DNA of 64,000 bases, from the NCBI RefSeq assembly GCF_026151205.1, contig NC_087081.1:11161113-11225112 (forward strand), in the 5' to 3' direction. The translations under genes and the position numbers were made by a program. The notes under the pieces were generated by a model, which saw nothing but the letters and a program-made list of their open reading frames with translations, made no database searches and was not told where the DNA came from. Below are positions 3,222 through 59,613 of the stretch, piece after piece (the first letter of the stretch is position 1; every line of letters starts with the position of its first letter). This DNA comes from Bolinopsis microptera. Its lineage: Eukaryota; Ctenophora; Tentaculata; Lobata; Bolinopsidae.

Positions 3222-3335
3222 CGGAGAGAGGTAATGCTCCTTTTTATTGCTCCTTTTTAACGGACAGAGGTAATGTTCCTTTTTAGTGAGTTTTTTTAAC
3301 GGAGAGGGGTAACGCTCCTATTTATTTACTAATTT
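3222..3335 (+). repeat. Degenerate tandem repeat
   Basis: Three imperfect copies of a unit of about 40-50 bp with the pattern ACGGAGAGGGGTAA-GCTCCTTTTTA. The rest of 3078-3765 shows nothing recognisable. Confidence 0.5.
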
Positions 3336-3805: not shown

Positions 3806-3958
3806 ATGCTTCTGTTTGAACCCAAGAACCGTTGGAGACTATCCGAGGATGATAGCCCTGTACGTGCTAAAGCGGACAGCCTGGAGCTTTATCTTAAAGC
3901 TACCCAGGGAATGATCGACCAGAACTTGCTGGCATCATCGCCTCCCTCCAAGTTCAAG
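3806..3958 (+). CDS. Candidate first coding exon, unknown gene
   Basis: The ATG at 3806 opens 51 codons that end at a good splice donor (TTCAAG|GTAATT, 3959), phase 0. The peptide is polar and charged (WRLSEDDSPVRAKADSLELY) and does not match a family I know. Its phase fits the candidate mini-exons at 5187 and 17962 and the first K2P core exon at 24108. It could therefore be an upstream alternative N-terminus of that channel, or it may belong to an unrelated gene. Transcript evidence is absent, so the call rests on codon pattern and donor only. Confidence 0.35.
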
Positions 3959-4018
3959 GTAATTTTGGGACAAATGGTTTCTAATCGTGACAAAGTCTTG
4001 ACCTTTGAAGTTTGACGT

Positions 4019-5183
4019 CTACGTAACAATAAGATACAATATGCTGATTTGATGAGAATAATAATAATAATACTTTGGTCCACCCTAACAAGTTAACGAC
4101 CCTATAGTTAGCTATTTAATGGGTGATCCCCTTGTTTAATGTCTCAATAAATGTCTGGCGGCTTATCTGAATAACTTTTAGTAGAGTGCACCTTACCTAC
4201 TCTTACAGGATTGGCAGTGCACCTTGCCTACTCACTACTGTTACAGGATCAACAATATGGTTCAGCCCCTAGGTATCAATAGCAATAGTGTCAGTTAGGA
4301 CGCTCTAACAAGAGCCTTTACTATCCATACCATAGTTCTTGTAAATTGAAACCTTTAAAACTTACAGCATAACCTTTAAATTTGCAACAGCTCGAGGCAT
4401 ATAACTACCGGATGGATTGAATATAAAAGTAGTTTGTTTGAGCGGAAGAATTTTTGTTTGCTAAATATTTCCCGGTATTTATGTGGTTTTTCATCGAGGA
4501 CATACTAAAACAGTTTTGGTAATTGGCTCACGCTCAATTTTGACCAAATGAATCAATCAACAGTTCAAACTAATCACACAACGTAAAAAACGGGGAATGG
4601 TATAAAAACAACATACTTTGTCAGATTTTTACTGCGCTCTAGTAAGATCTATGGCATGGTGTTAGGATTAGGATCTTTGGTGTGATCATTAGGATCATGT
4701 CTTCATCTCCAGCACTGTAATCCGTTTCACTAATTCCTCCACACTCCAGAGACCTATATATCTAAATTTCGAACGATTTTCGATGTTTTTCTCGATTCTA
4801 GACAAAAAATTCACCGTCATTAATTGTTGCACTATAGCCAGTCTAAGACATAAAATATGTTCGTTTTGTTTTGATTCGTTGCAGTATCAAATTTGTTAGT
4901 TGGTGATTAGCAGTTGGCAAAGAGGTTTACGCTTTAATTTGAAGGCTGTTCTGTACCATAATCCTGAAGAATAAGCTTATAATTTTACAATTTTCACCAA
5001 ATCTGTTCCTTTTAAAGATAGACAGTTTTTCCAACACTTCAAGCGGTCTAAGTATAAAGCAGTCTAGTATTTTATAGTAGGTATGTTTTCTCAGGAGTGC
5101 CCACTGGGGTTTTATTATGATTATGATGTAGTTAATAAATTAGTCCATTAGAGACAATCCCCTCACGAGGGGCTTTCAATCAG
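4019..5183. other. Non-coding stretch
   Basis: No supported gene. A short direct repeat (AGTGCACCTT-CCTACTC) occurs twice near 4188 and 4215. Otherwise this is AT-rich and probably intronic or intergenic. Confidence 0.5.
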
Positions 5184-5186
5184 ACA

Positions 5187-5225
5187 ATGCCAGCACCTCT
5201 CCGACGTCAACGAACCAAGGCCACG
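5187..5225 (+). CDS. Candidate 13-codon mini-exon (MPAPLRRQRTKAT)
   Basis: A splice-acceptor-like CAATCAG (ending 5183) precedes ACA ATG, and 13 basic codons end at a strong donor ACG|GTAAGT (5226), phase 0 on both sides. The short peptide is rich in Arg/Lys. It resembles in layout the 12-codon mini-exon at 17962, and both could feed the K2P core exon at 24108 in frame. It is very short, so chance is not excluded. Confidence 0.3.
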
Positions 5226-5670
5226 GTAAGTGATTAGGTTATCACTTAATTGATAATAATTAATAACTTGATTAATAAGTATTAAAATGATTTTTTAATT
5301 GGACTCTACATTTCACTTATCATAGTTAAAATTTCAATCCTCATTTTCGAAATTTTTTACTGTTAAGTGAAACAGCGTAAGTTACTTACCTTAAGTGGCT
5401 CCTACCTTAGCTCCTTAAGTAACTCCTCAAGTAGCTTCTACAAATCTGCCAGAGAAATGATCTGTTCGAAACTCATTGCATTACATACAGCGAAATCTCT
5501 CTTTAGTGAAACTCGAAAATAAACACCGCAAAACAGTTATCTTCAATCTAAACTCGTTCTGTACTTGATTACATTGTCTATTAGTAAGCACTGAGCATCA
5601 TGTACCACTTAGGTGAAGGGCTCACATTTGGGCGTTTCATAGGATGTCACATGGGGTGCAGGCCGCAGGG

Positions 5671-7413
5671 GTGTGCTAGGGGTGCACTAGGGGCTTAAGG
5701 GTGAACTAGGGGTGCACTAGGGGTGTACTAAGGGTGCACTAGGGGTGTACTAGGGGTGCACTAGGGGATGTACTAGGGTGCACTAGGGGTGCACTAGGGG
5801 TGCACTAGGGGTGCACTAGGGGTGCACTAGGGGAGCATTAGGGGTGTACTAGGGGAGCATTAGGGGTGTACTAGGGGTGTACTAGGGGTGCACTAGGAGT
5901 GCACTAGGGGTGCACTAGGGGTGCACTAAGGGTGCACTAGGGGTGTACTAGGGGTGCACTAGGGGTGTACTAGGGGTGCACTAGGGGTGTACTAGGGGTG
6001 TACTAGGGGTGTACTAGGGGTGCACTAGGGGTGCACTAGGGGTGTACTAGGGGTGTACTAGGGGTGCACTAGGGGATGTACTAGGGGTGCACTAGGGGTG
6101 TACTAGGGGAGCATTAGGGGTGTACTAGGGGAGCATTAGGGGTGTACTAGGGGTGCACTAGGGGTGCACTAGGAGTGAACTAGGGGTGCACTAGGGGTGC
6201 ACTAGAGGTGTACTAGGGGTGCACTAGGGGTGTACTAGGGGTGCACTAGGGGATGTACTAGGGGTGCACTAGGGGTGCACTAGGGGTGCACTAGGGGATG
6301 TACTAGGGGTGCACTAGAGGTGTACTAGGGGTGTACTAGGGATGTACTAGGGGTGCACTAGGGGTGCACTAGGGGTGCACTAGGGGATGTACTAGGGGTG
6401 TACTAGGGGTGCACTAGGGGTGTACTAGGGGTGTACTAGGGGTGTACTAGGGGTGCACTAGGGGTGCACTAGGGGTGCACTAGGGGTGTACTAGGGGTGC
6501 ACTAGGGGATGTACTAGGGGTGCACTAGGGGTGTACTAGGGGTGTACTAGGGGAGCATTAGGGGTGTACTAGGGGTGCACTAGGGGTGCACTAGGAGTGC
6601 ACTAGGGGTGTACTAGGGGTGCACTAAGGGTGCACTAGGGGTGTACTAGGGGTGCACTAGGGGTGTACTAGGGGTGCACTAGGGGTGTACTAGGGGTGTA
6701 CTAGGGGTGTACTAGGGGTGCACTAGGGGTGCACTAGGGGTGTACTAGGGGTGTACTAGGGGTGCACTAGGGGATGTACTAGGGGTGCACTAGGGGTGTA
6801 CTAGGGGAGCATTAGGGGTGTACTAGGGGAGCATTAGGGGTGTACTAGGGGTGCACTAGGGGTGCACTAGGAGTGAACTAGGGGTGCACTAGGGGTGCAC
6901 TAGAGGTGTACTAGGGGTGCACTAGGGGTGTACTAGGGGTGCACTAGGGGATGTACTAGGGGTGCACTAGGGGTGCACTAGGGGTGCACTAGGGGATGTA
7001 CTAGGGGTGCACTAGAGGTGTACTAGGGGTGTACTAGGGATGTACTAGGGGTGCACTAGGGGTGCACTAGGGGTGCACTAGGGGATGTACTAGGGGTGCA
7101 CTAGAGGTGTACTAGGGGTGTACTAGGGATGTACTAGGGGTGCACTAGGGGTGTACTAGGAGTGTACTAGGGGTGTACTAGGGGTGTACTAGGGGAGCAC
7201 TAGGGGTGTACTAGGGGTGTACTAGGAGTGTACTAGGGGTGCACTAGGGGTGCACTAGAGGTGTACTAGGGGTGTACTAGGGGTGCACTAGGGGTGTACT
7301 AGGGGTGCACTAGGGGTGCACTAGGGGATGTACTAGGGGTGCACTAGGGGATGTACTAGGGGTGCACTAGGGGTGCACTAGGGGTGCACTAGGGGATGTA
7401 CTAGGGGTGCACT
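5671..7413 (+). repeat. 11-bp G-rich minisatellite, about 155 copies
   Basis: Near-perfect tandem array of GGGGTGCACTA / GGGGTGTACTA units. Variants include a 12-bp GGGGATGTACTA, a GGGGAGCATTA and an AGAGGTGTACTA. Unit variants recur in the same order about 698 bp apart (for example AGGAGTGAAC at 6171 and again at 6869), so the array has a higher-order repeat. The + strand has a G4 run in almost every unit with 7-nt spacers. Confidence 0.95.
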
Positions 7414-8627
7414 AGGAGTACTTGAGAAACATAAGTGCAGACCTGCAGCTTTCGCAGGGCCAACACTAGCTTCGACTGTGAGTTCTGATGATACTCAATG
7501 TTCAGCCATTAGAATAAAATGTGAACTTGGTAACTTGGCCCGTGGCCTTGACTTCTTTGTGGGTTGTAAAAAAAGCCTGGAATTTTCTTTCAAATGCAGC
7601 CCAAAATATTTGAACAATCCACCAAATTTTCATCGTCTGAAACGTTTTAACAGGAGTCTTGTCAACAGAAATGCAACGTGCCATCACCAAAATTCTTCGT
7701 TGAGTGGACGAGTCTGCACCTGTAGACATTGTCTAAGCAAATCGGTAATAATATTCCGGAATATCGTATCATCGGAATGACAACCTTGTTCTTAACCGGC
7801 CATTAGGTTATTACGAAACAATAAATGAAGTGATTAGAAACTACTTATAAAGTGGTTAGAAACAAGATATGAAGTGTATCGTTTTAAACTGAGCACGTAA
7901 CTTTGTAATGAGTTTTTAAGTAGTATAGTTACCAAATTTCAAGTTCCATCAAGTACCTAAACAAGTTAAAGCTGGCTGCTAGTCTAAACTGTTCAGCAAA
8001 ATATTTAATGACCCATTACCATGAACCGTCACCATGAAATGTCAGCGAAACATTAATCATGTCATTGACCGGGCGAGTTGCCATATAGTAGTGCATATAT
8101 ATGTATTATATATTATACAGTTCACATACTATAGTGAAAAGCCAATTTGATAAGTGAGCAAATAAGCTTCACGCACGAGACACCATATTTTGGTATGTTA
8201 TAGTGAAATACGTTTGTAGTTCGTGGAATGTGACAAAAACTTACAATGCTTTACGATCAAAGCCAATTCCAGGTAGGTTCCACTTCCAGGTACGCGTGTC
8301 TAATAATTATGTAGGAAAACAAACTATGCGGATAATAAATTGATTATAATTAAGTTTCGCATGTATTTTATTTTCATACTTATTTAGGACACAGTAGTGG
8401 TCAGTGTTTGGCCTGGCTCTTTATTTGGCCGTATTTCAAACAGTTTCATTTGGTACTGTTTGACTACAAGATGTATTGTTTAATTTTTCTTGCTTTTAAT
8501 TTCAGCGCATTCATTTTTACGTTCATGTTAGCTATTAAGGATAACACTTCATAACATCAGCTGAACCTAATAACTTATAATACAGAAGTAGTACGTACTC
8601 CAGCTAGTTCTTAATCTGGGTCTCAAC
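7414..8627 (+). other. Flank and probable 5' UTR of LINE A
   Basis: No convincing gene. Open frames at 7478-7780 and 7502-7729 overlap on opposite strands and resemble nothing known. The part next to 8628 probably includes the LINE A 5' UTR, but the 5' end of the element cannot be placed from one copy. Confidence 0.4.
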
Positions 8628-10904
8628 TTGACTAGGAAGTCCAAAAACGGTCAGGATTACAGAATTAGAGTCTATTCATTTAAAGACGACACCACCATTG
8701 TTGAAAAACAACTGCGATTTTTCTCGAGAGATACCTGCGACAAGATTCTTAACAGTGCCTCGTCTAAGAATCTCAACAAGTGGATAGATCTTTGTGGCCT
8801 AACCAGTCAGAAAACAAACGAGCGAAGTCAAACTGCAATTAAAGCGTTTTTTAACCTTGTGATTGACAACAAATACAGCACGTACCCGTCAGCACCTCTC
8901 ATAACTAGTCTGGTCGAGAAAATGGCAGTTGATTCGCTAGATCGAGAACTCAAAAGGTTTGAAATAAACTTCAACCCGCAAACTCCTGTTGACAATAAAA
9001 AGAAACTGCTGCGTGACCACGTCAACGCTATTGGGCGCGAAGCTAGAAAGGCAAATCCACCAGATCTCATTAACTCTGAGACTGACTCTGAGTCAATATC
9101 TTCTGAACTCAGCGATGCCTCTAGCAGAAAGGGCTACAAAAGCTGTAACTCGAACAACAGCTCCAGTAACAGTGCACAGGGCAAGACGCAGAATACAGAA
9201 AAGAAAGTAAAGGTCAAAGTTAAGAAGACGAGGAAAGCAAGACAGATCTTAACCCCCGGCAAAATTAAGGTCCCTTGCAGCACTCACGAATCGATAGAAA
9301 ACTCAATACGACTCCTTGAGCAGAACTTACTAGAATTCCAAGAAAAGCTAGCAAACCAAGATTCAGTTCTGTCCTCCTTAGCCAGTCAACTCAACTCCAG
9401 CGCCCCACTAACCAGCTCAAAATCTCTAGCCACGCTGGTCAACAAAAACAAAACAATATTTGACACCCTAAATATTCAGCAAAACTCTATCGACAATATC
9501 ATGGACAGAATGATAGAAGGAGAAAAGGAACGGAAACGTATCCAAGACCAAGCTCACAGAGCAACGGCAGAAAAGGTTTTTCGATCCAAGACCCTTGAAC
9601 TTGAAAAACAGATAGCTGATTCAGCCAAGGAGGTTAACTACTTAAAAAGCGAGCTCGCAAGAATGAAAAACAACGAGCCGAACCAATCCAATGAGATACG
9701 CATAATACAGGCTAGACACAGCGAAGAACTCAGAAAACTCAAATCCGATATCATGGGGATGAAGAGTGTACCCGGAAGTCATTCGAACGGGGTCAATTAT
9801 CCCAACCAATATGATGGAGTTGACGAAAAATGTGCGATCCTAAGTCATTTGGAAAGTTTCAATAGACGCGCTACGAATGAGTTAGGAGACAAGATTCTCC
9901 AAGGACAACGAGAAGGGTTTGAACTTATCAGCCGAGAGATTACAGCGTGTCTCAAAGATCTATCTAAAATCAACACAGCAGGTCAAGAAGGTAACATCCA
10001 GCCTGCTAACAAACCTCGTGCTAATAGTTTTGAACCGGAACACCAAAACGATGCCGCCAACAAAACCCCCGAGGACCCCCTTACAAGACCAAACGACAAA
10101 AAACGCACGGCACCACACAAAGGAAAGAAAGAGAATATGCCGAGTCAAAAGGCTGAAGACCCAGCAACCTTTTTGTCCGAGGGAACCACTAAAAGCACGA
10201 CAACTGCTGGTGCCAATAAACAAAGCAAAAATAACAGTGATGGCACCCCTGTTAACCGTGAAACGTACCGTCGTGACAACTTCAATCCTCAACATTGGCA
10301 CACCCGGAAATGTGTAGTCATTCACGACGCACACTTCAATACCTTCGACGAATCAAGATTCACGAAACGTTTTGATGTCAAGAGGATAGAATATGATACT
10401 GCCGTATCAGCTAGCAGGGACCAAAACTTAGTAAAAAAAGTCTCAGAAATCAACCCTGAAGCCATTTATATCCATCTAGGGCAACTAGATGTTCTGAAGA
10501 ATACGCCAGGAAACACGATACTAGATGGTATGAAGAAAATCTTGGATGACCTAACAAAAGCAACCTCAGCAAAGATATGTGTTTCGCAGATTATTCCACT
10601 CCCCGGCTATCCACAAGGCAGCAGTACCATAAGACAGATAAACTCTGAACTAAGCGAATACGTCAAATCCAAGAATAATGCTAGCCTAGACATAAAAATA
10701 TGCACGCAAAACAATGACAATCTCGGAGGATTCATCCAGCGCAGCGTAGGACCACATGGAGTCTTGTTGGGTCTCGATGAACGAGGGGCTCGGAAATTGT
10801 GGCTTCATCTCCGTGACGGACTATTTAGATCTCTCGACATTGAGCTATCAAGAGGGACTAAAAACTCAATCAAACCTCAACAGAAGAAAAACCATAATGG
10901 ATAG
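8628..10904 (+). CDS. LINE A ORF1 protein with coiled coil and degenerate SGNH-like C-terminus
   Basis: A 758-residue protein, probably the RNA-binding and chaperone partner of the ORF2 enzyme. The N-terminal third is basic and polar. Residues about 190-215 are Lys/Arg-rich (KVKVKVKKTRKAR). Residues about 225-390 have heptad-like coiled-coil character. Residues about 440-550 are low-complexity and charged. The C-terminal 190 residues look like an SGNH/GDSL-type esterase fold: VVIHDAHFN (from about 563), IYIHLGQLDVL (about 614, where GxND is expected) and LDERGARKLWLHLR (about 716, the usual D-x-x-H block). Canonical catalytic residues are not clearly kept, so activity is doubtful. Esterase domains in ORF1 are known from CR1-like elements. 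The first ATG-like start is an ACTTG start at 8628, so translation may begin slightly downstream. Confidence 0.8.
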   Translation: MTRKSKNGQDYRIRVYSFKDDTTIVEKQLRFFSRDTCDKILNSASSKNLNKWIDLCGLTSQKTNERSQTAIKAFFNLVIDNKYSTYPSAPLITSLVEKMAVDSLDRELKRFEINFNPQTPVDNKKKLLRDHVNAIGREARKANPPDLINSETDSESISSELSDASSRKGYKSCNSNNSSSNSAQGKTQNTEKKVKVKVKKTRKARQILTPGKIKVPCSTHESIENSIRLLEQNLLEFQEKLANQDSVLSSLASQLNSSAPLTSSKSLATLVNKNKTIFDTLNIQQNSIDNIMDRMIEGEKERKRIQDQAHRATAEKVFRSKTLELEKQIADSAKEVNYLKSELARMKNNEPNQSNEIRIIQARHSEELRKLKSDIMGMKSVPGSHSNGVNYPNQYDGVDEKCAILSHLESFNRRATNELGDKILQGQREGFELISREITACLKDLSKINTAGQEGNIQPANKPRANSFEPEHQNDAANKTPEDPLTRPNDKKRTAPHKGKKENMPSQKAEDPATFLSEGTTKSTTTAGANKQSKNNSDGTPVNRETYRRDNFNPQHWHTRKCVVIHDAHFNTFDESRFTKRFDVKRIEYDTAVSASRDQNLVKKVSEINPEAIYIHLGQLDVLKNTPGNTILDGMKKILDDLTKATSAKICVSQIIPLPGYPQGSSTIRQINSELSEYVKSKNNASLDIKICTQNNDNLGGFIQRSVGPHGVLLGLDERGARKLWLHLRDGLFRSLDIELSRGTKNSIKPQQKKNHNG

Positions 10905-13900
10905 TCCCAAAACAACTGATGTCCTGATCAGATTGCCTTCCCACAACAGGGAGACATTGAAAATCCTTTCGTGGAACATACACGATGCTTCAAACGGGAA
11001 AGAAGGCAGGAAAATTGATGATACTGAATTTGCTGCCATTGTCACTTCTTGTCCCATTTTCTGTCTTCAGGAAACCAAGAGTAAAATATTTGTTCCAGAC
11101 TACAAATGTTTTAATGCTAACAGACCAAACAGTCGCTCAGGAGGACTTTGCATTGGTATCCACAGGTCTATTGCCAAGGATATCAAAGAAATAACATCCA
11201 ATTGTAGTGACATCCAATCAGTAAGGATAAAACTAGGAAGTGAGAGTGATGTCGATGAACTAGTTATCATCAACTTATACGACTCCCCTGAGCACTCTTC
11301 CTACAAGAAGAGATTGAAATCAAGCAAAAGTACATCCGATGACGATGCTTCAACTCTAGACAACTTACTTGACTTCACCATGAATAGTATTCAAAACGGC
11401 AGGAAGGTGATACTAGCAGGTGATTTCAATGCAAGGACCGCAACCTTGAACAACACCATCGAGGAAGATACTGAAGCATTATCTGCTGCAAACCCATTTA
11501 GCCAACGCAGCCACCCTTGTCTCAATGATCGTTCTAGCAAGGACCAGATGGTTAATCCTAGAGGAAAGTTACTCCTTGACTTTCTGGCCTGTGCAAATCT
11601 AACCATCCTAAACGGCAGCGTACTTGGCGATTCCTTAGGGGAATTCACATCGGTCAATTATGGCGGAGCTAGCGTTGTAGACTATGTTGCTGTAGGAGCT
11701 GACATAAAAGCGTTCGTTAAGAGTTTTAGAGTCCTTGATTTGAACAAATTCTCCGATCACAAACCCTCTGTCACAACACTTAGCCTGAGACACAACATAA
11801 CCCTTTCAGAAGAAATACTGCGTGACCTCGAGGACGCGCCCAGGAAGTACAAATGGCCATGTGAGGATAATGCTGAGCTCAAATTCTTGCTAGCTATGGG
11901 TGACCCTAGTATAAAGGAAAAGACGGAAACTCTGGCTACAAGTTCATGCAAAACCCATCAAGACGTTCTTAACCTTAACAACCAAATTGTTGAGCTGTAT
12001 CATCAGGTTGCTGAACAAGTGATGCCCCGAAAAAACGCCACAAGTCGTCAGAAAGGGCCGAGACATAATAAATATGGTAGCACCAAAAAGAAGAGTCGAA
12101 TGAAGCCAAAAATGGCATGGTTTGACAGTGAATGTATCCGTCTTAAGAGGACACTCAACATTCTAGCAAAAAAGTATGGAAGATCCCCATTGGACAAGCT
12201 CCTCAGGGACTCTTATTACGACACTCGGCGACAATATAGAAAGATGATCAGACATAAGCGATCAGAATTCTTTGAGAAGCTTTGCAAGGACATAGAAACA
12301 GGGAACAACATCTGCTGGAAATCCTTCAAAGCTCTTAAAAATACAAAATCGCCTGCAACCAGTCTTGATGCCTTCGATATGATCAACTTTTGCAAGTTCT
12401 TCAGTGAACTTTACGGCAAAAAGAACATCAAAGACTCTAAGATCGCAGAGCTACAGTCAAAGATGCAGAAAAACAACATTTGTGACGACCTGACAAAGCT
12501 TTTGGATCAAGATATAAAGATGGAAGAGCTGTGTGCTTGCATTAAGGCCACTAAAAAAGGAAAGGCAGTTTCCGAAGATCTAATTTCTAATGAATTCTTC
12601 AAAGCCTCAACACGATCCATGCTCAAAGCAGTCCTCAACCTCTTCAACCACTGCCTAAGCCTATCAATTTACCCATGGACTTCATCAGTAGTTACACCAC
12701 TACACAAAAAAGGTGATATCTATGATCCAAACAACTACAGAGCCATCGCTGTAGCGAGCAATCTCGGAAAGCTCTTTGCAAGCATATTGCTGAAAAGATT
12801 GATATCATTCTGTGATCAATGTGATCCTAATACAGCCAACCAACTAGGTTTCTGTAAAGACGCACAGACAGCAGACCACATTTTCACATTATCAACCTGC
12901 GTGGAAAAGTATGTCACCAAGAAACGCCAACGGCTATACACATGCTTTGTCGATTATGCCAAAGCGTTTGATTCCATCTGTCGTGAGGCACTCCTATACA
13001 AGTTGTGGAAAATGGGTATTCAAGGGAGATTCTTTGAGTGCATTAAGTTCATGTACTCAAACTCCTCAGCCAAAGTGAAGCTACTCGGCAAGCTGTCACA
13101 GAAGATCGACATAATATGTGGTACCGAGCAAGGACACCCCATGTCCCCTGAACTGTTTAAATGCTTTGTCCACCAGCTTTCACATGATCTCAACAACATC
13201 GAAGGATTGAAAGTCCCTGTCCTAAATGATACAGATATAACTCATCTGCTATGGGCAGACGACCTTGTCCTTCTAGCCCTCAACAAACACAGTCTTCAAC
13301 AAATGCTTGATGTCCTAAACAATTACTGCTCAGAATGGGGCCTGACAGTAAACGTTGGAAAAACTTCAGTCCTTGTGTTTAACCCAACAGGAAGGCATCT
13401 GAAGGAAAGTCATGAGTTCAAACTGGGAGAACAACAGATCCCCTCCGGGAGAGAGTACTGTTACCTTGGCATTACATTTACTCTGAGCGGATCACTTAAG
13501 CTAACACAACAAAAGCTGAGGCAAAAAGCATTAAGAAGTTATTTCTCTTTGAAAAGCTACATTGATACCCGCCACATCAGGAAATCTATACTGTTCAAGC
13601 TATATGATACACTTATTGTACCTGTGGTGTCGTATGGTTGCCAAGTGTGGCTGCCAAGCACAGCCCTGTTCCGCAACTTCCCCACAAACACGAGCACCAC
13701 ACCAGAAACAGGAAACGTGTGTACACTCATTGCCAGGGACCCTCTAGAGAACTTTCATCTGTCTCTTTTGAAATGGACCTTAGGGGTGAGGAAGTCAACA
13801 TCCAATGCTGCGATATGGGGTGACACAGGCAGGCATCCACTAGGCATCACGCTATCAAAGCAAGTGTTCAACTACAAAGAAAGACTTGAACAAATGGTTG

Positions 13901-14547
13901 TAGACGGTCGTGACTGCTTTGCTAGACACGCTTTCGAAGAGCAGGCGACCCTAAACCTGAGCTGGTTCTCCACTCTCGAGCAGATGCAGGAAACCATCGA
14001 GGCATCAGAGAGAAACCAAGGATTAAGACCAAGCCAGATTAGAAAGAGTTTGCAAAAGTGGTTTATAAACTCATGGGAAACAGAAAGGACATCTAACAGA
14101 AAACTATCATTCTACAACTTAGTGAAGAGAAAGTTTGCTCAAGAGACGTACCTAGCCCTTGATCTTAAACCTAACTGCTCAAAGAAGATCGCGCAATTCA
14201 GAAGCAGCTCCCACCGCTTTAACGTTGAAACTGGTCGCTACGGCAAAAAGCGGTTTAACATAAAACATCGGGCCTGCAGACATTGCTGCTCAAGTGACGA
14301 TGACTTGTTAGATCTTCTCTATGAGCTACCAGGGGCCTATCCAGTGATAGAAGATGAGCATCACATCCTCTACGAATGCCCCCTATACGAAGACCTACGC
14401 AAAAACCTGCATCAACGAACGAGGGACCTGTTAGTTATGAGAGAAGAACCGGGAGAAATCTTCGACGACTCAACATCAATTAGAGACATTGGACGTTTTT
14501 TAAATAAGGTCGATGAACTGAGGTTCCCAAAGAAAAATACTGAATGA
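10897..14547 (+). CDS. LINE A ORF2: AP endonuclease / reverse transcriptase
   Basis: This 1216-residue protein nicks the target DNA and copies element RNA by target-primed reverse transcription. The start was chosen at 10897, where ATGGATAG overlaps the ORF1 stop by 8 nt; the frame is open further upstream inside ORF1. Endonuclease motifs are SWNIHDA (W26), LQETK, GDFNAR (G175) and FSDHKP (S286). Reverse transcriptase motifs are YAKAFDS (K689), TEQGHPMSPELF and the catalytic LWADDLVLL (D788, D789). The C-terminus has a Cys/His zinc-knuckle-like region (CRHCC from 1127, then EDEHHILYECPLY). All core residues are present and there is no frameshift, so it may be active. The LWADDL catalytic box and the CCHC-like tail set it apart from LINE B and C; I do not assign a clade. 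Confidence 0.92.
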   Translation: MDSPKTTDVLIRLPSHNRETLKILSWNIHDASNGKEGRKIDDTEFAAIVTSCPIFCLQETKSKIFVPDYKCFNANRPNSRSGGLCIGIHRSIAKDIKEITSNCSDIQSVRIKLGSESDVDELVIINLYDSPEHSSYKKRLKSSKSTSDDDASTLDNLLDFTMNSIQNGRKVILAGDFNARTATLNNTIEEDTEALSAANPFSQRSHPCLNDRSSKDQMVNPRGKLLLDFLACANLTILNGSVLGDSLGEFTSVNYGGASVVDYVAVGADIKAFVKSFRVLDLNKFSDHKPSVTTLSLRHNITLSEEILRDLEDAPRKYKWPCEDNAELKFLLAMGDPSIKEKTETLATSSCKTHQDVLNLNNQIVELYHQVAEQVMPRKNATSRQKGPRHNKYGSTKKKSRMKPKMAWFDSECIRLKRTLNILAKKYGRSPLDKLLRDSYYDTRRQYRKMIRHKRSEFFEKLCKDIETGNNICWKSFKALKNTKSPATSLDAFDMINFCKFFSELYGKKNIKDSKIAELQSKMQKNNICDDLTKLLDQDIKMEELCACIKATKKGKAVSEDLISNEFFKASTRSMLKAVLNLFNHCLSLSIYPWTSSVVTPLHKKGDIYDPNNYRAIAVASNLGKLFASILLKRLISFCDQCDPNTANQLGFCKDAQTADHIFTLSTCVEKYVTKKRQRLYTCFVDYAKAFDSICREALLYKLWKMGIQGRFFECIKFMYSNSSAKVKLLGKLSQKIDIICGTEQGHPMSPELFKCFVHQLSHDLNNIEGLKVPVLNDTDITHLLWADDLVLLALNKHSLQQMLDVLNNYCSEWGLTVNVGKTSVLVFNPTGRHLKESHEFKLGEQQIPSGREYCYLGITFTLSGSLKLTQQKLRQKALRSYFSLKSYIDTRHIRKSILFKLYDTLIVPVVSYGCQVWLPSTALFRNFPTNTSTTPETGNVCTLIARDPLENFHLSLLKWTLGVRKSTSNAAIWGDTGRHPLGITLSKQVFNYKERLEQMVVDGRDCFARHAFEEQATLNLSWFSTLEQMQETIEASERNQGLRPSQIRKSLQKWFINSWETERTSNRKLSFYNLVKRKFAQETYLALDLKPNCSKKIAQFRSSSHRFNVETGRYGKKRFNIKHRACRHCCSSDDDLLDLLYELPGAYPVIEDEHHILYECPLYEDLRKNLHQRTRDLLVMREEPGEIFDDSTSIRDIGRFLNKVDELRFPKKNTE

Positions 14548-50655: not shown

Positions 50656-51618
50656 GGAGAAACGACACGAAAACGAAATGTCAAGAAAAGTCCAGAGAAA
50701 ACTGGTGCTACAGCACAAAAGGATGCAACTGAAGATGAAAAAGATCGTAGTTGTGAATGCAGAAGGTATATCGCAGAGGAGTTTTCATTAGCTTGTGCAA
50801 CCTGTGATATGTACTGGCATTATTGCTGTGTTGGACTGACAGGTCTGACACAAGAAGAAGGCGACCATCTGTCTAACTGGCGTTGTCAGAATTGTTTTAT
50901 ATCACCTTACATAAAAAGCAAAAGGACTCAGACCTCGAACCCTGATAATGAAGAAACAAAAATACTACGGAATTTTATTAGGCAGGAACTTGAGGCCCTT
51001 ACACCTTGTATCAGAGGGGTTGTTGAAAACGCAGTGAACGAGAACATTTCAACTAACTTTGAGTCTGAAAAAACTAAAGAAATATCAAATATAGTGAACC
51101 AGGCTTTCCAGTCCTTCGCTGATGTTACTGCAAATAGTCAGAAGAAAGTGATGGAAGAAATGAGCCTACAGCAAGCTTCACAAAGTGTTGTCAGTAAAGT
51201 TCAGACAAAGATGCACACTGATGCATATGAGCGAAATTTAAGGAAGCTCAATCTGTGTGTTTTGAATGTACCAGAGAGCAAGAAAGCTAACTCCAAGCTA
51301 CGCCAGGAAGAGGACTCGAATTTCTGCAAGGAGACATTAAAGATTGAAAAAAGTGACTTTATCAGTTGCCATCGTGCAGGTAAAGTGGATCCAGATAAGC
51401 CAGACTCCTGTCGGCCATTAATCATCCAGACAGCTGACGAGGAGTCAGTTAACTTTTATTCCAACCATGGCAAGGGCTGGAGAGAGTCATCATACTGGAT
51501 AAATCTGGATCTCTGCAGAGCAGACCGAGAGATCCGTTTTTTAGCCAGAGAAGAGAGGAAGAAGAGGCGGGAAGAAGCAGAGAAGAAAAAGACAGAGAAG
51601 AAGGTGGAGAAGAAGTAA
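50656..51618 (+). CDS. LINE C ORF1 with PHD finger (5' end uncertain)
   Basis: The frame runs from just after a stop at 50653 to TAA at 51618. The first ATG in frame is at 50809, inside the PHD finger, so the true start is lost or non-AUG. The PHD-type C4HC3 zinc finger reads SCECRRYI, CATCD, WHYCC and WRCQNC. A helical middle (about 51000-51200) follows, then an RRM-like region (RKLNLCVLNVPESKK, ISCHRAGKVDP) and a Lys/Glu-rich tail. PHD fingers in ORF1 are known for CR1-like non-LTR retrotransposons. It would bind element RNA and possibly chromatin. Confidence 0.75.
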   Translation, partial: GETTRKRNVKKSPEKTGATAQKDATEDEKDRSCECRRYIAEEFSLACATCDMYWHYCCVGLTGLTQEEGDHLSNWRCQNCFISPYIKSKRTQTSNPDNEETKILRNFIRQELEALTPCIRGVVENAVNENISTNFESEKTKEISNIVNQAFQSFADVTANSQKKVMEEMSLQQASQSVVSKVQTKMHTDAYERNLRKLNLCVLNVPESKKANSKLRQEEDSNFCKETLKIEKSDFISCHRAGKVDPDKPDSCRPLIIQTADEESVNFYSNHGKGWRESSYWINLDLCRADREIRFLAREERKKRREEAEKKKTEKKVEKK

Positions 51619-51648
51619 ATAGCAGTGACAAAGAATGTAGTCAGCCCA

Positions 51649-52588
51649 TGAATATTTTTTATACTAATGCTAATGGACTATTTAATAAAATTGATGAACT
51701 AACACATGTATTCTATCAGTTTATAAATCCATTCATGTAATCTGCATTACAGAAACTCATTTTAATAGTGATATTTTAGATGCTGAAATTTTTATTGAAG
51801 GTTTTTGTATGTTTAGAAAAGACAGAGATTTTAAAATCGATAACTCCACTAGCAACATAAGTGGAGGTGGAGGTTCTATTATTTATATTTAAAACAGTTG
51901 TAATGCTCCATTAGTGAGCTCATTTTTAAAAGCACCAGACTCTTTAGCTATTAATGTCAATACCTCTGGTGGATTGATTAGTATTTGTTGTATTTATAGG
52001 TCTACTTCTTTGAATTTGGACCAGAACAATATGTTATTATCTTGCATCAAGAACATTATATCTAGTGAAAAGAATGTTTTTGAAACCATTACCATAGGAG
52101 ATTTTAACCTACCTAATGTATCTTGGGAAACTGGTAGTGTAAATAGTGGTATTTCTACTAAGAATCAGGTTTTAATGATTCAACAAAAGTATATTGATAT
52201 ATTTTTTATTGTATTTTGTGCAAAGTGTATGAAAAGTTGGTGAGGGCACATTTACTAACATTTTTAGAAGAATGAATTTCAAAGCATCAGCATGGATTTG
52301 TGAAGGGTTAATCTTGTCTATCTAATCTCTTATATTTTAGACAAAGGTGCTCCTGTCGATCTTTTGTATTTTGATTTTAGTAAGGCTTTTGACACAGTCC
52401 CCCACTTTAGACTTCTATCTAAATTGGAGGGGTTTGGGGTCAAGGGAAAAGTTTTAGATGTTATAAAAAAATTTCTGACAGACAGAACCATGAGGGTTTG
52501 TGTAGAAGGACAATGGTCTGAGGTGAAACACGTGTTATCTGGTGTTCCCCAGGGGTCAGTATTAGGTCCTTTGCTATTTATTCTTTAT
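51649..52588 (+). pseudogene. LINE C ORF2, left half, decayed and interrupted
   Basis: Endonuclease motifs survive in pieces: NANGLFNKIDELTH, ITETHFNS after a frameshift at about 51735, GGGGSIIY and TIGDFNLPNVSWE (about 52095). An internal deletion then leads to reverse transcriptase pieces: QHGFVKG followed by a stop, YFDFSKAFDTVPHF (from 52367), and SGVPQGSVLGPLLFILY ending at 52588. The frame is cut there by LINE B and resumes at about 58594 as IND-PDIVKNKIKLFADD. CR1-like clade. Confidence 0.85.
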
Positions 52589-52958
52589 TTTTTAATACTT
52601 TCAACACTACTAATACTTTCAACACTACTATATAACAAATAATTTGAGGACCCCTAGTGGGAATTAACACCTCAATCAAATGTAGCAACCATTACAGGTT
52701 GTATGTCGATGTAAATGGTTGTTGCATGATAGTTTATTTAAAGACATCCTAAAGACTATCAGACATCGTTTTTAAGAGCTGTTAACTCCCATCTATTACC
52801 TATCACCCATCTATCACCTAAAGAATATCAGACACCACTCATTCCCATCTTCTGAATTGCTGCAAAGGTACTGTAATCAACAACTAAATAACTATAAACA
52901 GTAGCATCGGTTTTAGACTCTATCCTGAATTCTTTGCATTATTGTGTTTATTTGAACT

Positions 52959-54569
52959 ATGTCCGGTATCCCAATCAGAAATTACAGCCTTCGTGACAGA
53001 CCTAACAGTGCAAAAGCAAAATGTTCTACCTGTGTATCACTAAGTCTTGAAAACGACAATTTGAGGAGACAAATTGCTCGTCTAACCAAACTTACCCAAG
53101 GCTCAGGCCATGACAAAATTGCGGTTCCATTCTCTTGCGGGGACAATGTTCTTATCTCTGAACATGAATCAGAAACTCAAAACTGTGAAGTTAGCAGTGT
53201 GACTGAACTTAATAGCAACCCATCTCTTGTGAATTCTTCTGATGTTAACAAACAATCTTCAACCAGTGTTAACGTTGTGGGTAAGTCCATCAATCCATAT
53301 CATGATTTGAGTCGAGGTGTATTCAGGTTTGTTGATACTCTCAAGTTGGATATGGAAACACAATACACACAAACGTTTAACAATAGGGCTGTAGCATACT
53401 ATGGGGATTTCCCATATGCCTACAATGGAGGCTTCCATAACACAAGGCCGTTAAATGACAATCCCTTATTAAAGTCTATTTTAGAACGTTTACGCTCACA
53501 GTTCCCAAGTCTGAAATTTAACAGCGCCATGATCACTAAGTATGAAAATGGCAAGCAAGGAATACCATTTCATTCAGATGATGAGAGGTCCATATCACCA
53601 GGCTCCATGATTTCCACCATATCGTTAGGAGCAACAAGAGTCCTCAGTTTTAGGTCTAAAAGCAAAGTCCATGTTGCCAATCTTACTCTCTCCCATGGCG
53701 ACATAATGATTATGACCAGAAAATCTCAGGACAGCTTTGAACACAGCCTTATTCAGGACCATACTGATGACATGAGAATTAGCATTACTCTGCGCCAGAT
53801 TGATGGCAGTGCAACCTTGTCTGCTCCACTCGATACCTCAAGTAAGCCTTTCGTTACTGTAAGAGAAACTGAACCCTCAATCAAAGGGAAATCATCACCC
53901 AACAAAATCACTCATAAGAGCACCGTACCCCCTGCTTCAGTCAAAAGCAAATCCCTTGCTGTGTATGTTAGCTCAAGCATGTTCTCCAAGTTAGATGCTA
54001 CAAAACTATCCTCTGCTCATCAAGAAGCACATGTATTTCACTATCCTGGTGGCATTGCAAACGGTATCAATGAACGCTTCCACTCAGATGAAAGAAAGAG
54101 GTCAATTGATGCAAATAATGTGAAGACCATCGTACTCATGTGTGGAACTAATGATGTGGACTTAATCCTAGAGAGTCCTCGACACATGAGGAATAGATTA
54201 TTGTCACCCGATGAGTTCACAGGAAAAGCAAAGGCCCTTGATATTACCAATCGCTCTATTGATAATCTGATCCAGTCACTTCACTCGTGGGCTCCAGCTG
54301 CAAAAATTAAGATCATAAACATTTTACCAAGAGAAAGTTTTGCTAGAAATAAAGTGATAAATGACATCAATATCTTTTTATCTAAGATTCCTTCCAAATA
54401 CTCGTTTGTTAGCTTTATACCCACAGAGATGAATCGATTTTTGTTTAGTGATAGATCTGGATTTAGGAAATCATCTTGTTTTAGTAGATTTGGGGAAGAC
54501 AATGTGCATCTAAACAGCGATGGTATCTTTAAACTAGCAAAGCACATCAAGTACCATGCTCACCATTGA
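52959..54569 (+). CDS. LINE B ORF1: AlkB-type dioxygenase fused to SGNH hydrolase
   Basis: An intact 536-residue ORF from ATG 52959. Residues about 24-45 have leucine-zipper character (LENDNLRRQIARLTKLTQ), with CSTC before. Residues about 105-282 are a 2-oxoglutarate/Fe(II) dioxygenase of AlkB type. The iron ligands are in FHSDDE (H205, D207) and FEHSL (H262). RISITLR (R273, R279) fits the AlkB motif RxNxTxR with Ser for Asn, and MITKYENG precedes. Residues about 333-535 form an SGNH hydrolase: SSSMFSKL (block I), CGTNDV (396-399) and DNVHLNSDG (D514, H517). AlkB enzymes remove alkyl groups from nucleic acids. Here it could repair or demethylate element RNA or cDNA, which is an inference. All key residues are retained, suggesting selection. 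Confidence 0.9.
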   Translation: MSGIPIRNYSLRDRPNSAKAKCSTCVSLSLENDNLRRQIARLTKLTQGSGHDKIAVPFSCGDNVLISEHESETQNCEVSSVTELNSNPSLVNSSDVNKQSSTSVNVVGKSINPYHDLSRGVFRFVDTLKLDMETQYTQTFNNRAVAYYGDFPYAYNGGFHNTRPLNDNPLLKSILERLRSQFPSLKFNSAMITKYENGKQGIPFHSDDERSISPGSMISTISLGATRVLSFRSKSKVHVANLTLSHGDIMIMTRKSQDSFEHSLIQDHTDDMRISITLRQIDGSATLSAPLDTSSKPFVTVRETEPSIKGKSSPNKITHKSTVPPASVKSKSLAVYVSSSMFSKLDATKLSSAHQEAHVFHYPGGIANGINERFHSDERKRSIDANNVKTIVLMCGTNDVDLILESPRHMRNRLLSPDEFTGKAKALDITNRSIDNLIQSLHSWAPAAKIKIINILPRESFARNKVINDINIFLSKIPSKYSFVSFIPTEMNRFLFSDRSGFRKSSCFSRFGEDNVHLNSDGIFKLAKHIKYHAHH

Positions 54570-54704
54570 AATCGACATGACATTTCCACCTGAATATTTA
54601 TTTTGATTTCAAGTTTAAAACTTTTCTATTGAAAATATTTACAGGCAGATAATTTTCACCTGATTTTAGTTTAATCAGACACAACGACTAACACGTTTTG
54701 TGAA

Positions 54705-57682
54705 ATGACAAATATTCACAACTCAGCTGACAAATTTCATAACCTTTGCATTGGTCACTGTAACATTCAAGGTGGTCTCCTAAATTTAGCTAAAAGTAAT
54801 GAACTTACTCAACTCATTCGAGATCATAAGCTAGACATACTGTCCCTAAATGAGATGAATCTTAATGATACTATTGACACAGACACCATAAATATTCCTT
54901 CCTCCTTCAACATTATGCGATGCGACAGGCCAAACAGTTCTAGGGGTGGTTGTGGCTTAATGATAAACAAAAAACTAGCTTACACAGAATTAGTTATGGA
55001 TAGTAAGCTTGATAACATTGAAGCATTATGGGTGAAGCTTAAGAATAGCAAGATCAATGTTTGCTGCTTCTATCGCTCTGGAAATTATTGCAGTGTTGAT
55101 AACTTTATTGAGTACATTCATTTTTGCATGAAAAAATTGAACGGGAAAAAGGTTATCTGGATTGGGGATATAAACATTGACCAGAATAATATCTCATCCA
55201 CCCAGTACAAAAAATTAGATATGACCTTGAGATGTTACAATCTAGTTCAAACCATTCAAGGGATAACTAGAGTTGCTAAACGTGGAGACAATTTTACCCA
55301 GACTACTATTGATGTAATATTCACTAACTGTTATGCAGATTTTGTTCAATCTTCTGTTCTTGATGAACGTATTGGGGATCATCAAGCTATTATGTGTGAG
55401 ATAGATTGTAAAGTACCTATAGCTCCTAAATTTGAAAAGGTTGAAATTAGAAATCATTGTAAACGTAATGTTAAACAATTCTTAGACTATCTAGATACCT
55501 GTTCTGATTACAGTCCACTATTGGAAAGTACAGATGTTGAAGCTATCACTGCTGGCCTTTGTCATCATATTGAACAGGCATATGCAACCTTCTTCCCTTG
55601 CAAGACCATAGAAAGGCATGAAAAGTTCATACATAAACCTTCTACTGAACTTTTAAATGCCATTAATCATACACATTTTCTTCTAAAGAAATTCCGTAAA
55701 AAGAAGGATAAGAGAGACAATAGAAATTGCAATAAATGTGGTATATGTAGCAAATGTATAAAGTGTAATGAGGCCTGGGATTGCTACAAGATTCAGAGAA
55801 ATATTAGAAATAAATTAGCTAAAACCTGCAAAAAAGCTAATGTAATCGATGATCTACAAGTTAAAAGTGCCAAGAATGATCTTAAAGGGGTATGGAAAAC
55901 TATCAAACTGGCATCAAATATGACCCCTGGTACAACTAATTGTCAAACTATCAATAAGAATGATCCTGAGCTATTTAACTTTCATTTTGCAAATGTTGGA
56001 TCAAGATTACAAAATCAGGCCCCCAATATTGAAAGAGTTAGTTTTACTGATTTTTTACCTCCTAGAACTTCTAACATCTCATTTGATAGATTCCAAGAAA
56101 TAAATGAAACTGATATCCTAATGTATGTCGAAACGCTCAAGAATGACAAGGCCTCATATGACGATGTGCCTCTATTTTTACTTAAGCAAGCTGTACCACA
56201 CATAGTTGAGCCACTGACCCATATTGTCAATTTGAGCCTTAATACAGGTGTTGTACCAACCCTTTGTAAAAAAGCTAGAGTAACTCCCATCCATAAGGCA
56301 GGAATGAAAGATGATCCTAATAATTACAGGCCAATATCCATCCTTCCACTTGTAGGAAAACTTATAGAATACTTTGTCGGCAAGCAACTCACTGATTACA
56401 TGGAAGAGAACAAACTTTTCATCCGGCATCAATATGGCTTTCGGAAAAATCACTCCACAACTTATTTGATGTACGATCTGATGGACGAAATATATATGAG
56501 TAAATCTAAGTCTTATAAACCAGGAATCATCTTTCTTGATCTTAAGAAGGCCTTTGACACAGTGAATCATGAAATATTGCTTCAAAAATTGGCATATTAT
56601 GGAATTGGTGGCATTGCTTTAACCTGGTTTAAGAACTTCTTATCTTGTAGATATCAATGCACTAGGATCAATGGCAAACTAAGTTCATTTTTAGAAGTTC
56701 TGAGTGGTGTACCACAAGGAAGCATCATTGGGCCTATATTATTTAGTATCTTCATAAATGACATCATTTATGCCTGTAACCTATCTAAGCCCTTTCTATT
56801 TGCAGATGATGGTGCACTATTCTTTGATCAAACCTGCAGAAGCACATTTATAAACATGAAAATAGAACTTATGACAATCTTTAAATGGCTCAGTGTAAAT
56901 AAATTATCACTCAATGAAAAGAAGACTGAATTCCTATTGTTTGATTCTGTTGATCAACATGATGAATTAACCATTGAATGTAATGAGGTAACTTTCACAA
57001 TCAAGGAGTGCAAAGAGACAAAATATCTTGGCCTCATTCTAGATAGTAAATTAAACTTCAAAAGCCATGTAGATTATATTATTAAGAAGGTCATGAAGAG
57101 AATTGGTGCCATGTATAGAAGTAAAGCACTGCTACCCATTAAATATAGGAAAATGTTTGCCAATGCACTCATGTTGCCACAATTCGATTATTTAGACACA
57201 ATCTATTGTAGAGCTGGCAAGACAAAACTTGCTGAACTTGACACTCTGTACAAAAAGGTAGCCAAAATAGCTCTCAACGTTCCACAAACAGAGAGCAGCC
57301 TTAATGTTTATAGAGACATGAAATTTGGTTACCACTCCATCTTAGACGACAACTCCATCTGTCAAATTATATGTTTAGAATCATCCATGACAATTGTCCT
57401 ACAAACTTTATGAACAAATTTAGTTACATATCAGGAGGTAGTAGGAGCGGCGAAAGCTGCAACCTATATGTTAATAGATCAACATCACATAAAAACTTTC
57501 AATACTTGGGGGCAAAATGTTGGAATAATGTTCCAACAGATCTACGAAATCTGCCCGATGTTAAAAGCTTTAGTGATTCGTATAAGAAACAGCTACTCTC
57601 ATCTATAACAACAGACCCTAATTATACCGTCGACAATTCATATGACAAATTTTACACTGCAATCATAGTCGACGATAACTAA
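54705..57682 (+). pseudogene. LINE B ORF2: endonuclease / reverse transcriptase with late frameshift
   Basis: The frame is open for 902 residues from 54705. The AP endonuclease has GHCNIQGG, SLNEMNL, WIGDINID (G154) and IGDHQA. A Cys cluster (CNKCGICSKCIKC, about 342-354) precedes the reverse transcriptase: NNYRPISILP, LDLKKAFDTVNHE, SGVPQGSIIGPILFS and LFADDGALF (D701, D702). A single frame change near 57365 moves the conserved C-terminal domain (FRIIHDNCP, NFQYLGAKCWNNVP, LRNLPDVKSF) to another frame that ends at 57682. Only one break suggests a young copy. CR1/L2-like. The Cys cluster between endonuclease and reverse transcriptase is unusual. Confidence 0.9.
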
Positions 57683-58593
57683 GTATCTTCTAATTCTTTT
57701 AAATCTGAGGCATATATAATTGATGTATCGAAAGGATTTTCCCTTTTTTACCACCTTACCATTTTGATTGATTTTGCACATGACTGACATGTTTTAACCG
57801 GAGAAAGGGTTCGCACAGTGGTAGTTTTATAAACCACTTTTAATTTATTGACCTATTATAATACCTAGTGGTAGTTTTATAGACCACATTTAATTTATTT
57901 ACTTATTATACTTAGTATTTATTTTTGGTGACTGTATCACCCAGTTTTAACATTTGATAATTGTACAGTTTATTGACGACACATTGACTGAATGTTATTT
58001 TATATTCTAATTTATATTCTAGATATTTTATTTATTTTTCAACAGACGACAACTTCCTGTTTTTTCTTCTATATTAGTTACTCATATCTCTTTTACAGAC
58101 TTTTTTACAAGGACATTGACAGATGATACTCACATTAGGCATTCATTATTGCATCTAAATTATTTCACTTGCATTAGGTTTAGAAATTTATTCTCTGGTT
58201 AACAGATTTCAAATGTTTAATTAATTTGTAGTATGACAGTAAGGTATATAAGAAGTTATTTAATTTTGCTTGGGCTATTATATTGACTATTGAGGTTTAA
58301 TGATGATATGGAATTTGAATTCTATATAAATTTACACTATGTGGTTGGGGCATTTTGCATAGTAAATATGGTTACTACTCCTATATATCATATTATTTGA
58401 TTGGTATTCGATTTCTGATTATTTCTCTAGGAATATGATTATTATATCTCAATTTGGCTTTAGGTAGGGTGCCCCGCTAAAAGAACTGGATTCTTCCAGG
58501 AAGCATCCCGTGCACAGACCTTGGTCTACATATATATTAAATTATTAACCATTCATTCTGTATGTGCACGAAAATTTATTTCAATCAATCAAT

Positions 58594-59613
58594 ATAAACG
58601 ATTAACCTGACATTGTTAAAAATAAGATTAAATTATTTGCAGATGATCTCAAGTTAGTTTTTAATGCAGCTAACCATGGAAGTGTATCTGATGATATTTT
58701 AGAACTCGAAATTTGGGAGAGTATTTGGCACTTAAACTTCAATCCTGCCAAGTGTAAAGTAGTTCATATTAATCTGAATAATAATCCTAACTTAAACTAT
58801 ATTGTAAATGGAGTAGAACTAGAAGTATCTGCACAGCAAAAAGATTTAGGGGTTATTACCCATATAATAGCTCCTTGCTTTGGAATGAACAGATAAAAGC
58901 ATGTATTTCTAAAGCAAATCGTATGATCTGCTGGATTGTAAGGAATTTAGTTATTAGAGAACAGGTTGTAATGATAGCTATTTATAAAGCTTTGATAAGA
59001 CCTCATCTTGAGTATTGTGTCCAATTGTGGAATCCATTTGCGGCTCATGGAAGTTGGGGGACTATTTTGGAGCTGGAGAGCGTCCAGAGGTGGTTTACCC
59101 GTCTTATTGATGAGGTGGGTACTCTTCCATACAGCCGTAGACTGGATATCCTCAATTTGACAACACTGGCAGAGGGGCGAATACGTGGGGACCTTATTGA
59201 AGCTTTTAAAGTAACTAGTGGTTTGACTGAACATGGATCGGGTTTGTTCAGAATGAGCAGATCTGGTCTTAATCTTGTTTCAACCAATAGATGTAGTAAA
59301 AGTGTAACTAAAGTGAAGAATCTCCAGTCTTCTTTTCTTCCGGAGCGAGTCATTCCTTATTGGAACAAACTCCCTTCAGATGTCAAGAACTGCTCGACAG
59401 TTTTAAAGTTAGATTGGAAGGATTTAAGAAAGAAATGATTTCTAAAAACAGTGTAAATGATTTTTATTTTTGGAATGTTTCAAATGAAGTTTTAGGGAAA
59501 ATTGAAGGACCCAGTTATTTAAGCAATAAGGAGAGACATAATGAATATCTTTGGTTTCATCCTTTTGTGGCAAAGAAGCGTTTTGTAAATCTTTATTCCA
59601 CTGGGAAGTTTTA
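58594..59613 (+). pseudogene. LINE C ORF2, right half
   Basis: It resumes the reverse transcriptase at IND, with a stop where Leu is expected (TAA for TTA), then IKLFADDLKLVF (catalytic FADD), FNPAKCKVVH, KDLGVI, a frame change near 58862, and MICWIVRNLV, YKALIRPHLEYCVQLWNP and IPYWNKLPSDV. A last frame change near 59430 leads to SNEVLGKIEGPSYLSNKE and the end at 59613. Several breaks make it dead. It pairs with 51649-52588 as one element. Confidence 0.85.

Follow-up and report, generated by a model that had tools for sequence, protein, structure and literature searches.

A retrotransposon ORF1 with AlkB and SGNH domains

The stretch analysed here, hereafter the window, comprises 64,000 nucleotides of the genome of the ctenophore Bolinopsis microptera (NCBI RefSeq assembly GCF_026151205.1, contig NC_087081.1, positions 11,161,113 to 11,225,112 of the forward strand). 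It contains LINE B, a long interspersed nuclear element (LINE) whose first open reading frame (ORF1) combines in one polypeptide an AlkB-type dioxygenase domain, dependent on Fe(II) and 2-oxoglutarate (Fe/2OG), and an SGNH hydrolase domain; its ORF2 matches the Pfam families Exo_endo_phos and RVT_1 (Table 1). An ORF1 with a predicted esterase fold upstream of an ORF2 with APE endonuclease and reverse transcriptase is the layout of a Type IV LINE ORF1.

Judged by sequence and predicted fold, the AlkB domain has a complete Fe/2OG active site. ORF1 scores 66.7 bits against PF13532 (2OG-FeII_Oxy_2), far over the curated cut-off of 31.2, and the closest solved structures by sequence are human ALKBH3 (E 1.3e-13) and ALKBH2 (E 1.6e-12). 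In the structure comparison, 171-174 residues of the predicted domain can be overlaid on ALKBH2/3, at about 2 Å in the best rows and with 26-30% identity. The cofactor residues that the original prediction had read from the sequence, H205, D207, H262, R273 and R279, are kept in 121 of 121 sequences (the 120 listed homologues and the query, over which all residue counts were made); the HxD...H ligands and two C-terminal arginines thus accompany the Pfam score and the fold as ALKBH2/3-like features. The motif reads HSD(D/N)E, with an invariant E209 (121/121), and motif and modelled fold place the domain closer to ALKBH2/3 than to ALKBH5. A fold search of BFVD with the domain was headed by AlkB-bearing proteins of plant RNA viruses. 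A chance match or misannotation is rejected by the Pfam score, the structure-database matches and the predicted fold.

Further along the frame, sequence and structure model point to an SGNH hydrolase fold with a complete triad. The predicted fold is that of PAF-AH; S340 and N398 are present in 121 of 121 sequences, G364 in 120 of 121, and D514 and H517 in 118 of 119. Some homologues, for example P0014, P0018 and P0019, carry a precomputed GDSL domain. The hydrolase named in the original prediction is therefore upheld by catalytic residues and predicted fold, whereas its Pfam score falls short (see below). Sequence similarity to the ZfL2-1 esterase (4c1b) is marginal (E 0.14), and the best 50 fold-search rows do not include that structure, an absence that is uninformative. 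ORF1 opens with a CxxC and a helix predicted by the model, a start that may serve oligomerization.

Table 1. Features of LINE B and its surroundings in the window, and loci elsewhere in the genome that carry the domain pair
Feature	Position or locus	Strand	Basis or remark
LINE B, full length, ~6 kb	52589..58593	+	ends fixed to within a few bases
LINE B 5' untranslated region	52589..52958	+	compared with 15 other copies
ORF1, 536 aa: CxxC and helix, AlkB, SGNH	52959..54569	+	complete frame
CxxC (C22, C25) and predicted helix 23-48	53022..53102	+	sequence comparison, structure model
AlkB-type Fe(II)/2OG dioxygenase domain, residues 109-283; ligands H205, D207, H262, R273, R279	53283..53807	+	
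SGNH hydrolase domain, residues 329-536; S340, G364, N398, D514, H517	53943..54566	+	
ORF2, APE endonuclease and reverse transcriptase, 902 aa open	54705..57413	+	Pfam
Probable remainder of ORF2 C-terminus, other frame, 103 aa	57371..57682	+	frame list, comparison with P0122
LINE A, different LINE split by LINE B	50809-52588 and 58594-59438		flank reading
CxxC-AlkB-SGNH	L046, L048-L050, L056		frame split in L046
PHD-like-AlkB-SGNH	L055, L058, L061		PHD by Pfam below cut-off
PHD-like-AlkB-SGNH	L062		by likeness to L055
AlkB-helical-SGNH	L053, L054		
AlkB-SGNH with another start	L057		
Giant Helitron protein	L051, C10:16872500-16882400, frame 1904-9901		

Conservation and selection

A protein search found 242 ORF1 homologues at E ≤ 1e-3, of wide divergence, of which 120 are listed. 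When 12 of the 121 sequences, near copies (P0047-P0057, P0059), are left out, the alignment of the remaining 109 has only 19 invariant columns of 536, and these include all five AlkB cofactor ligands. A profile search yielded 45 proteins, 5 of them new. Among those listed, the three homologues with a named organism (P0061, P0245, P0246) are all from Mnemiopsis leidyi; P0246 joins a gag-like part with zinc knuckles, recognized by eye, to an AlkB ORF1, and two elements may have been fused in its gene model. The pairwise distances of the two domains correlate (r 0.78 for 99 sequences after thinning; none of 999 permutations reached that value). Their trees have 46 of 96 splits in common; among AlkB splits with support, 6 of 49 clash with a supported SGNH split (P0011 and P0061 left out, 119 sequences thinned to 99). 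Matching distances and common splits indicate that AlkB and SGNH have travelled mostly together, as a module.

The searched genome (264,652,675 bases, 232 contigs) holds at least 85 matches to ORF1 (81 of 849 candidates scored). Subfamily A comprises 16 full-length copies with 97-100% identity to the window ORF1. Subfamily B comprises 22 copies whose matches span residues 1-536 or 5-536 at 66-67%; 21 of these are uninterrupted by a stop. In 15 of the 16 A copies, ORF2 lies behind ORF1 at the distance expected, with 96-100% identity, and in 3 of these 15 it gives way to other sequence after 101-213 residues; L021, the remaining A copy, has its ORF2 start close to that position, at 93% identity, tangled by nested pieces. 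ORF1 as a host gene adjoining a LINE is rejected on this placement. The LINE B family is a recently active non-LTR (long terminal repeat) retrotransposon.

Codon analyses covered the 16 A copies and four of the five fetched B copies (L035, which has a stop, was excluded). Between A and B, the ratio of nonsynonymous to synonymous substitution rates (dN/dS) of AlkB was 0.108 (0.055-0.188; one pair, 500 codon resamples), and 0.099 when all 16 x 4 pairs were taken; the linker gave 0.488 (0.145-1.218). The proportion of nonsynonymous differences (pN) between the subfamilies increased from 0.10 in AlkB to 0.20 in SGNH and 0.42-0.43 in the N-terminus, and within B the dN/dS ratios of these parts were 0.13, 0.22 and 0.76. 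All 20 copies (16 A, 4 B) retain the AlkB ligands; at the SGNH residues the same copies show one G364S and one gap at S340. Further pairs of loci come from other elements with both domains, described below: AlkB gave 0.132 for L049/L056 and 0.180 for L055/L062, SGNH of the latter pair 0.176 (0.049-0.610), and the two Helitron pairs sharing L051 gave 0.171 and 0.156 for AlkB and 0.185 and 0.224 for SGNH, with upper limits below 0.5. SGNH of L049 versus L056 and both domains of L055 versus L058 were too saturated for a ratio. These values argue that AlkB is under clear purifying selection, and SGNH likewise where measurable. Neutral decay of the ligands in other copies, which would have told against the original prediction, was not seen: the same fusion recurs with an AlkB dN/dS of about 0.1. 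Nor did any other outcome named beforehand as refuting occur; the observation is confirmed and its interpretation supported.

Exchange of ORF1 and setting of LINE B

In all five B copies checked, the first 447 ORF2 residues are 97% identical to the window ORF2. Comparing one A copy (L007) with one B copy (L033) in 100-column nucleotide bins, gaps scored as differences, we found 27-84% identity per bin in ORF1; in ORF2 the first two bins reached 80 and 93% and the following ones 97-100%, and the last bin, at the end of the fetched stretches, 71% with 20 gaps. The mosaic break lies at about 54,800-54,900 of the window, between an ORF1 at 66% by protein and an ORF2 at 97-100% by nucleotide. As ORF1 has diverged while ORF2 is nearly the same, the ORF1 module has been exchanged between elements.

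The 5' end of LINE B is common to 8 of 15 other copies, although in the window copy its first bases are partly duplicated; of the remaining copies, four begin with another stretch and three are truncated or altered. Upstream of the same ORF1, L010, L012, L015 and L017 carry a second variant of the 5' end, as if the promoter end were also exchanged between copies. The 3' end, ...TTTATTTCAAT(C/T)AA, was recovered in four of six stretches fetched for it; one of the other two was ORF2 sequence and the other unrelated sequence. LINE B interrupts LINE A within the latter's reverse transcriptase, where the joined flanks read GVPQGSVLGPLLFILY/IND (GPLLFILY/IND, the slash marking the junction), and no clear target-site duplication was found at the flanks. 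Elsewhere in the window (8628-14547) lies another LINE with a 758-aa ORF1 whose C-terminus is weakly SGNH/OSK-like (Pfam E 0.0063, below cut-off; PDB E 0.16); a Pfam scan gave no AlkB match in it.

The domain pair in other elements

At least 151 places in the genome match Pfam AlkB (150 of 587 candidates scored), and all that are listed lie above cut-off. We opened 19 of these places, the 8 best and 11 picked for diverse frame length, which are not a random sample; AlkB and SGNH share a single frame in 15 of the 19. The original prediction had called such a fusion unusual. AlkB in a LINE or Helitron was indeed not found in the open-licence PMC literature (Repbase, preprints and closed journals lay outside the search), but within this genome the fusion is common and extends to other LINE lineages and Helitrons. 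Eight pair ORFs were scanned with Pfam: AlkB was above cut-off in 8 of 8, and a GDSL match appeared in 6 of 8, always below cut-off; in L053, L061 and the unscanned ORFs, SGNH was assigned from motifs read by eye or script. The other four places are L043 and L044, which are apparently the host's ALKBH2- and ALKBH3-like genes (labels from resemblance), the fragment L060, and L045, which is the same as L052. L052 has an ALKBH3-like AlkB ORF (479-1345) followed on the same strand by an SGNH ORF (2096-2914), and its 7-kb stretch holds no other frame of at least 120 aa. We do not count it as a split pair, as its AlkB falls with the ALKBH3-like gene of the host (100/99 in the fuller tree described below, 93/97 in the reduced one), and the two ORFs are probably chance neighbours or a host pair.

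The LINEs with a PHD-like start have an endonuclease frame behind ORF1; it scores above cut-off in L055 and L061, and the L058 match stays below. A second zinc-finger-like stretch is seen at the start of ORF2 in these three loci (Pfam below cut-off) and in L062 (unscanned). From its sequence L051 is a Helitron that carries the pair in reverse order: one frame reads SGNH (3-170; 26.6 bits, below the Pfam cut-off), AlkB (481-613), Helitron_like_N (1890-2089; 79.8 bits, cut-off 28.9) and PIF1 helicase (2535-2662; 43.9 bits, cut-off 25.9). Pro/Ala-rich repeats accompany SGNH and AlkB ahead of Rep and the helicase. L047 and L059 share the SGNH-AlkB part, Rep and helicase being seen in L051 only, and the AlkB match list holds six frames of 2225-3388 aa, L047 and L051 included.

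How the pair came to be in both element classes was approached with domain trees, whose long branches make origins unsure. In a reduced AlkB tree, which leaves out 8 of 40 rows (VIR_L004-6, LINEc_L057, LINEcc_P0245, P0010, P0077 and HEL_L059) and in which the groups tested were named after the fuller tree had been seen, the Helitron and three PHD-LINE rows group together (92/92), and a clade of LINE AlkBs excluding Helitrons is rejected (p 0.0147). In the fuller tree of 40 rows, Helitron, L055 and L058 form a group (96/81) with L061 outside; LINE L053/L054 fall with host and viral rows (97/97), viral L004-L006 fall among the transposable element (TE) rows, and the TE AlkBs are not one group. 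In the SGNH tree (HEL_L059, P0010, P0065 and P0077 left out; P0245 lacks an SGNH part) a Helitron and PHD-LINE group is absent from the best tree and is not rejected (p 0.375). The pair may have passed between LINE and Helitron. One scan of viral contigs gave no AlkB match, and a second found six distant AlkB loci (26-30%); in L001, L004 and L006 the viral AlkB lies within very long open frames (3038-3626 aa, stop-to-stop reading).

Implications of a proposed two-enzyme ORF1

What might a retrotransposon gain from carrying these two enzymes? We propose, giving the idea an even chance of being correct, that ORF1p is a two-enzyme protein of the element's ribonucleoprotein (RNP) whose AlkB domain clears the element's nucleic acid of methyl groups. 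The N-terminus would oligomerize ORF1p on element RNA, and AlkB would strip Watson-Crick-face methyls (1-methyladenosine, m1A; 3-methylcytidine, m3C; and similar groups) from the RNA serving as template, from single-stranded complementary DNA (cDNA), or from both. With the template demethylated, reverse transcription would proceed unstalled and the copy be kept clean, so that an AlkB riding on the RNP could enable the element to use RNA that is methylated or damaged as a template and to clean its single-stranded cDNA. SGNH would act on lipids or membranes, tethering or releasing the RNP there, as suggested for ZfL2-1. Reverse transcriptases are halted by methyls on the Watson-Crick face, such as m1A and m3C, which laboratory protocols remove with AlkB enzymes ahead of reverse transcription. 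Helitrons replicate via single-stranded DNA (ssDNA), where such lesions also arise; the presence of the pair in Helitrons therefore fits a common need, the protection of single-stranded intermediates. Both AlkB catalysis and its substrate in LINE B are what we infer from sequence and predicted structure.

Several observations weigh against this proposal. The GDSL match of ORF1 reaches 16.1 bits against a cut-off of 32.9. The transposon-specific histidine of ZfL2-1, H191, a conserved residue of the monophyletic transposon esterases of CR1, RTE(X) and Penelope-like elements, is found in 0 of 121 sequences: the equivalent position 394, placed by counting from the common G-T-N motif (T194 and N195 in the numbering of PMC3905857), is L in 61, M in 50, F in 9 and N in 1. 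With a predicted template modelling score (pTM) of 0.50, the model does not fix the mutual arrangement of the two domains. Silent sites of SGNH and the N-terminus are saturated between A and B and yield no ratio (a value of 0.057 for SGNH, computable in 284 of 500 resamples, is not relied on). Within A, dN/dS is 0.46 for the whole ORF, 0.53 for SGNH, 1.45 for the N-terminus and 2.2 for the linker, with AlkB at 0.19; these ratios rest on few changes and include dead copies, and they lend the proposal no strong support. ORF2 of the window copy seems to be frame-shifted near its end, since P0122, a 98% relative, has 991 aa against 902 here and a 103-aa frame (57371-57682), which has no match in a Pfam scan, probably encodes the remainder. 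AlkB could also act on protein or on another mark.

Other readings of the AlkB domain draw on the same evidence. It might erase a regulatory mark deposited by the host, N6-methyladenosine (m6A) in RNA or a DNA mark, and so serve counter-defence, as has been proposed for orchid Phalaenopsis Gypsy elements, whose ALKBH5-like protein is described as demethylating m6A RNA in vitro (PMC9289625). Retention of AlkB by RNA-copying and DNA-copying element classes alike would suit such an eraser, but fold and the HSD(D/N)E motif with its invariant glutamate are nearer to ALKBH2/3 than to ALKBH5, and we regard this reading as unlikely, if a serious rival. That the domain mainly binds RNA or ssDNA, with catalysis incidental, would fill a gap, as the account of RepBase esterase-containing ORF1ps in PMC3905857 reports no RRM or other structural RNA-binding domain; mere binding needs no such constraint as keeps the five ligands among so few invariant columns, which makes this idea improbable. 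TEs do capture host genes, and the genome has host-like ALKBH2- and ALKBH3-like genes (L043, L044), from which a passenger could have been picked up by a few copies and left to neutral decay. The number and divergence of the homologues, ligands kept in 121/121 and 20/20 sequences and the low AlkB dN/dS lead us to reject a passenger as scarcely credible; TE AlkBs also stand weakly apart from host and viral ones in the reduced tree (64/64), though not in the fuller one.

Beyond LINE B, we tentatively suggest, with more doubt than confidence, that AlkB and SGNH form a two-enzyme survival kit shared and traded, in differing orders, by LINEs and Helitrons of ctenophores, because these elements must pass RNA or ssDNA through methylation damage or a methyl-based defence and through a membrane or lipid step. 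If true, this would be the first known instance of retrotransposons and rolling-circle DNA transposons trading an enzymatic module to protect a nucleic-acid intermediate. The conserved pair suggests that these elements may free their own copies of chemical marks or damage. That a Helitron has it as well points to a pressure from the host that acts on RNA- and DNA-copying elements alike, possibly methyl-based defence or damage. The role of LINE ORF1 is an old open question, above all where enzymes replace RNA-binding domains; one ORF1p with two enzymes of known chemistry and many near-identical copies reduces it to a direct assay.

Comparison with known systems

The closest parallels lie in the esterase ORF1s described from CR1, L2 and RTEX elements. 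ZfL2-1 and other Type IV ORF1s resemble that of LINE B in their SGNH hydrolase and the APE-reverse transcriptase ORF2 downstream, and are likewise described as modular and swapped between lineages (PMC3905857; PMC4120745, which cites Kapitonov and Jurka 2003). Their coiled-coil or zinc-finger/leucine-zipper start may have a counterpart in the CxxC and predicted helix of LINE B. LINE B differs from ZfL2-1 in having AlkB between start and esterase and in lacking an H191 equivalent. SGNH-bearing ORFs are also reported from bdelloid LTR elements and Penelope-like elements (PMC5408684). In fish, SGNH (Texim) genes are associated with Helitrons, as SGNH is with L051, but Texim is described as a gene of its own, with introns, that neighbours the Helitron (PMC4021074), whereas L051 has SGNH, AlkB, Rep and helicase in one frame.

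For AlkB, human ALKBH2 and ALKBH3 share the fold, the ligands and the H-x-D-D-E motif with the LINE B domain; unlike it, they are stand-alone repair enzymes. Alpha- and Betaflexiviridae and Closteroviridae, as described in PMC9289625, also carry AlkB within the replication protein of an RNA-copying parasite. The replication machinery of these plant RNA viruses is unrelated to that of LINE B. To our knowledge, their AlkB has no SGNH partner. The orchid Gypsy (Ty3/Gypsy) elements are like LINE B in encoding an AlkB-family domain in a retrotransposon, but in the description of PMC9289625 theirs is a separate ORF, ALKBH5-like and of m6A type, in an LTR element of a plant; in LINE B, a non-LTR element, AlkB is fused into ORF1, is ALKBH2/3-like and is joined to SGNH.
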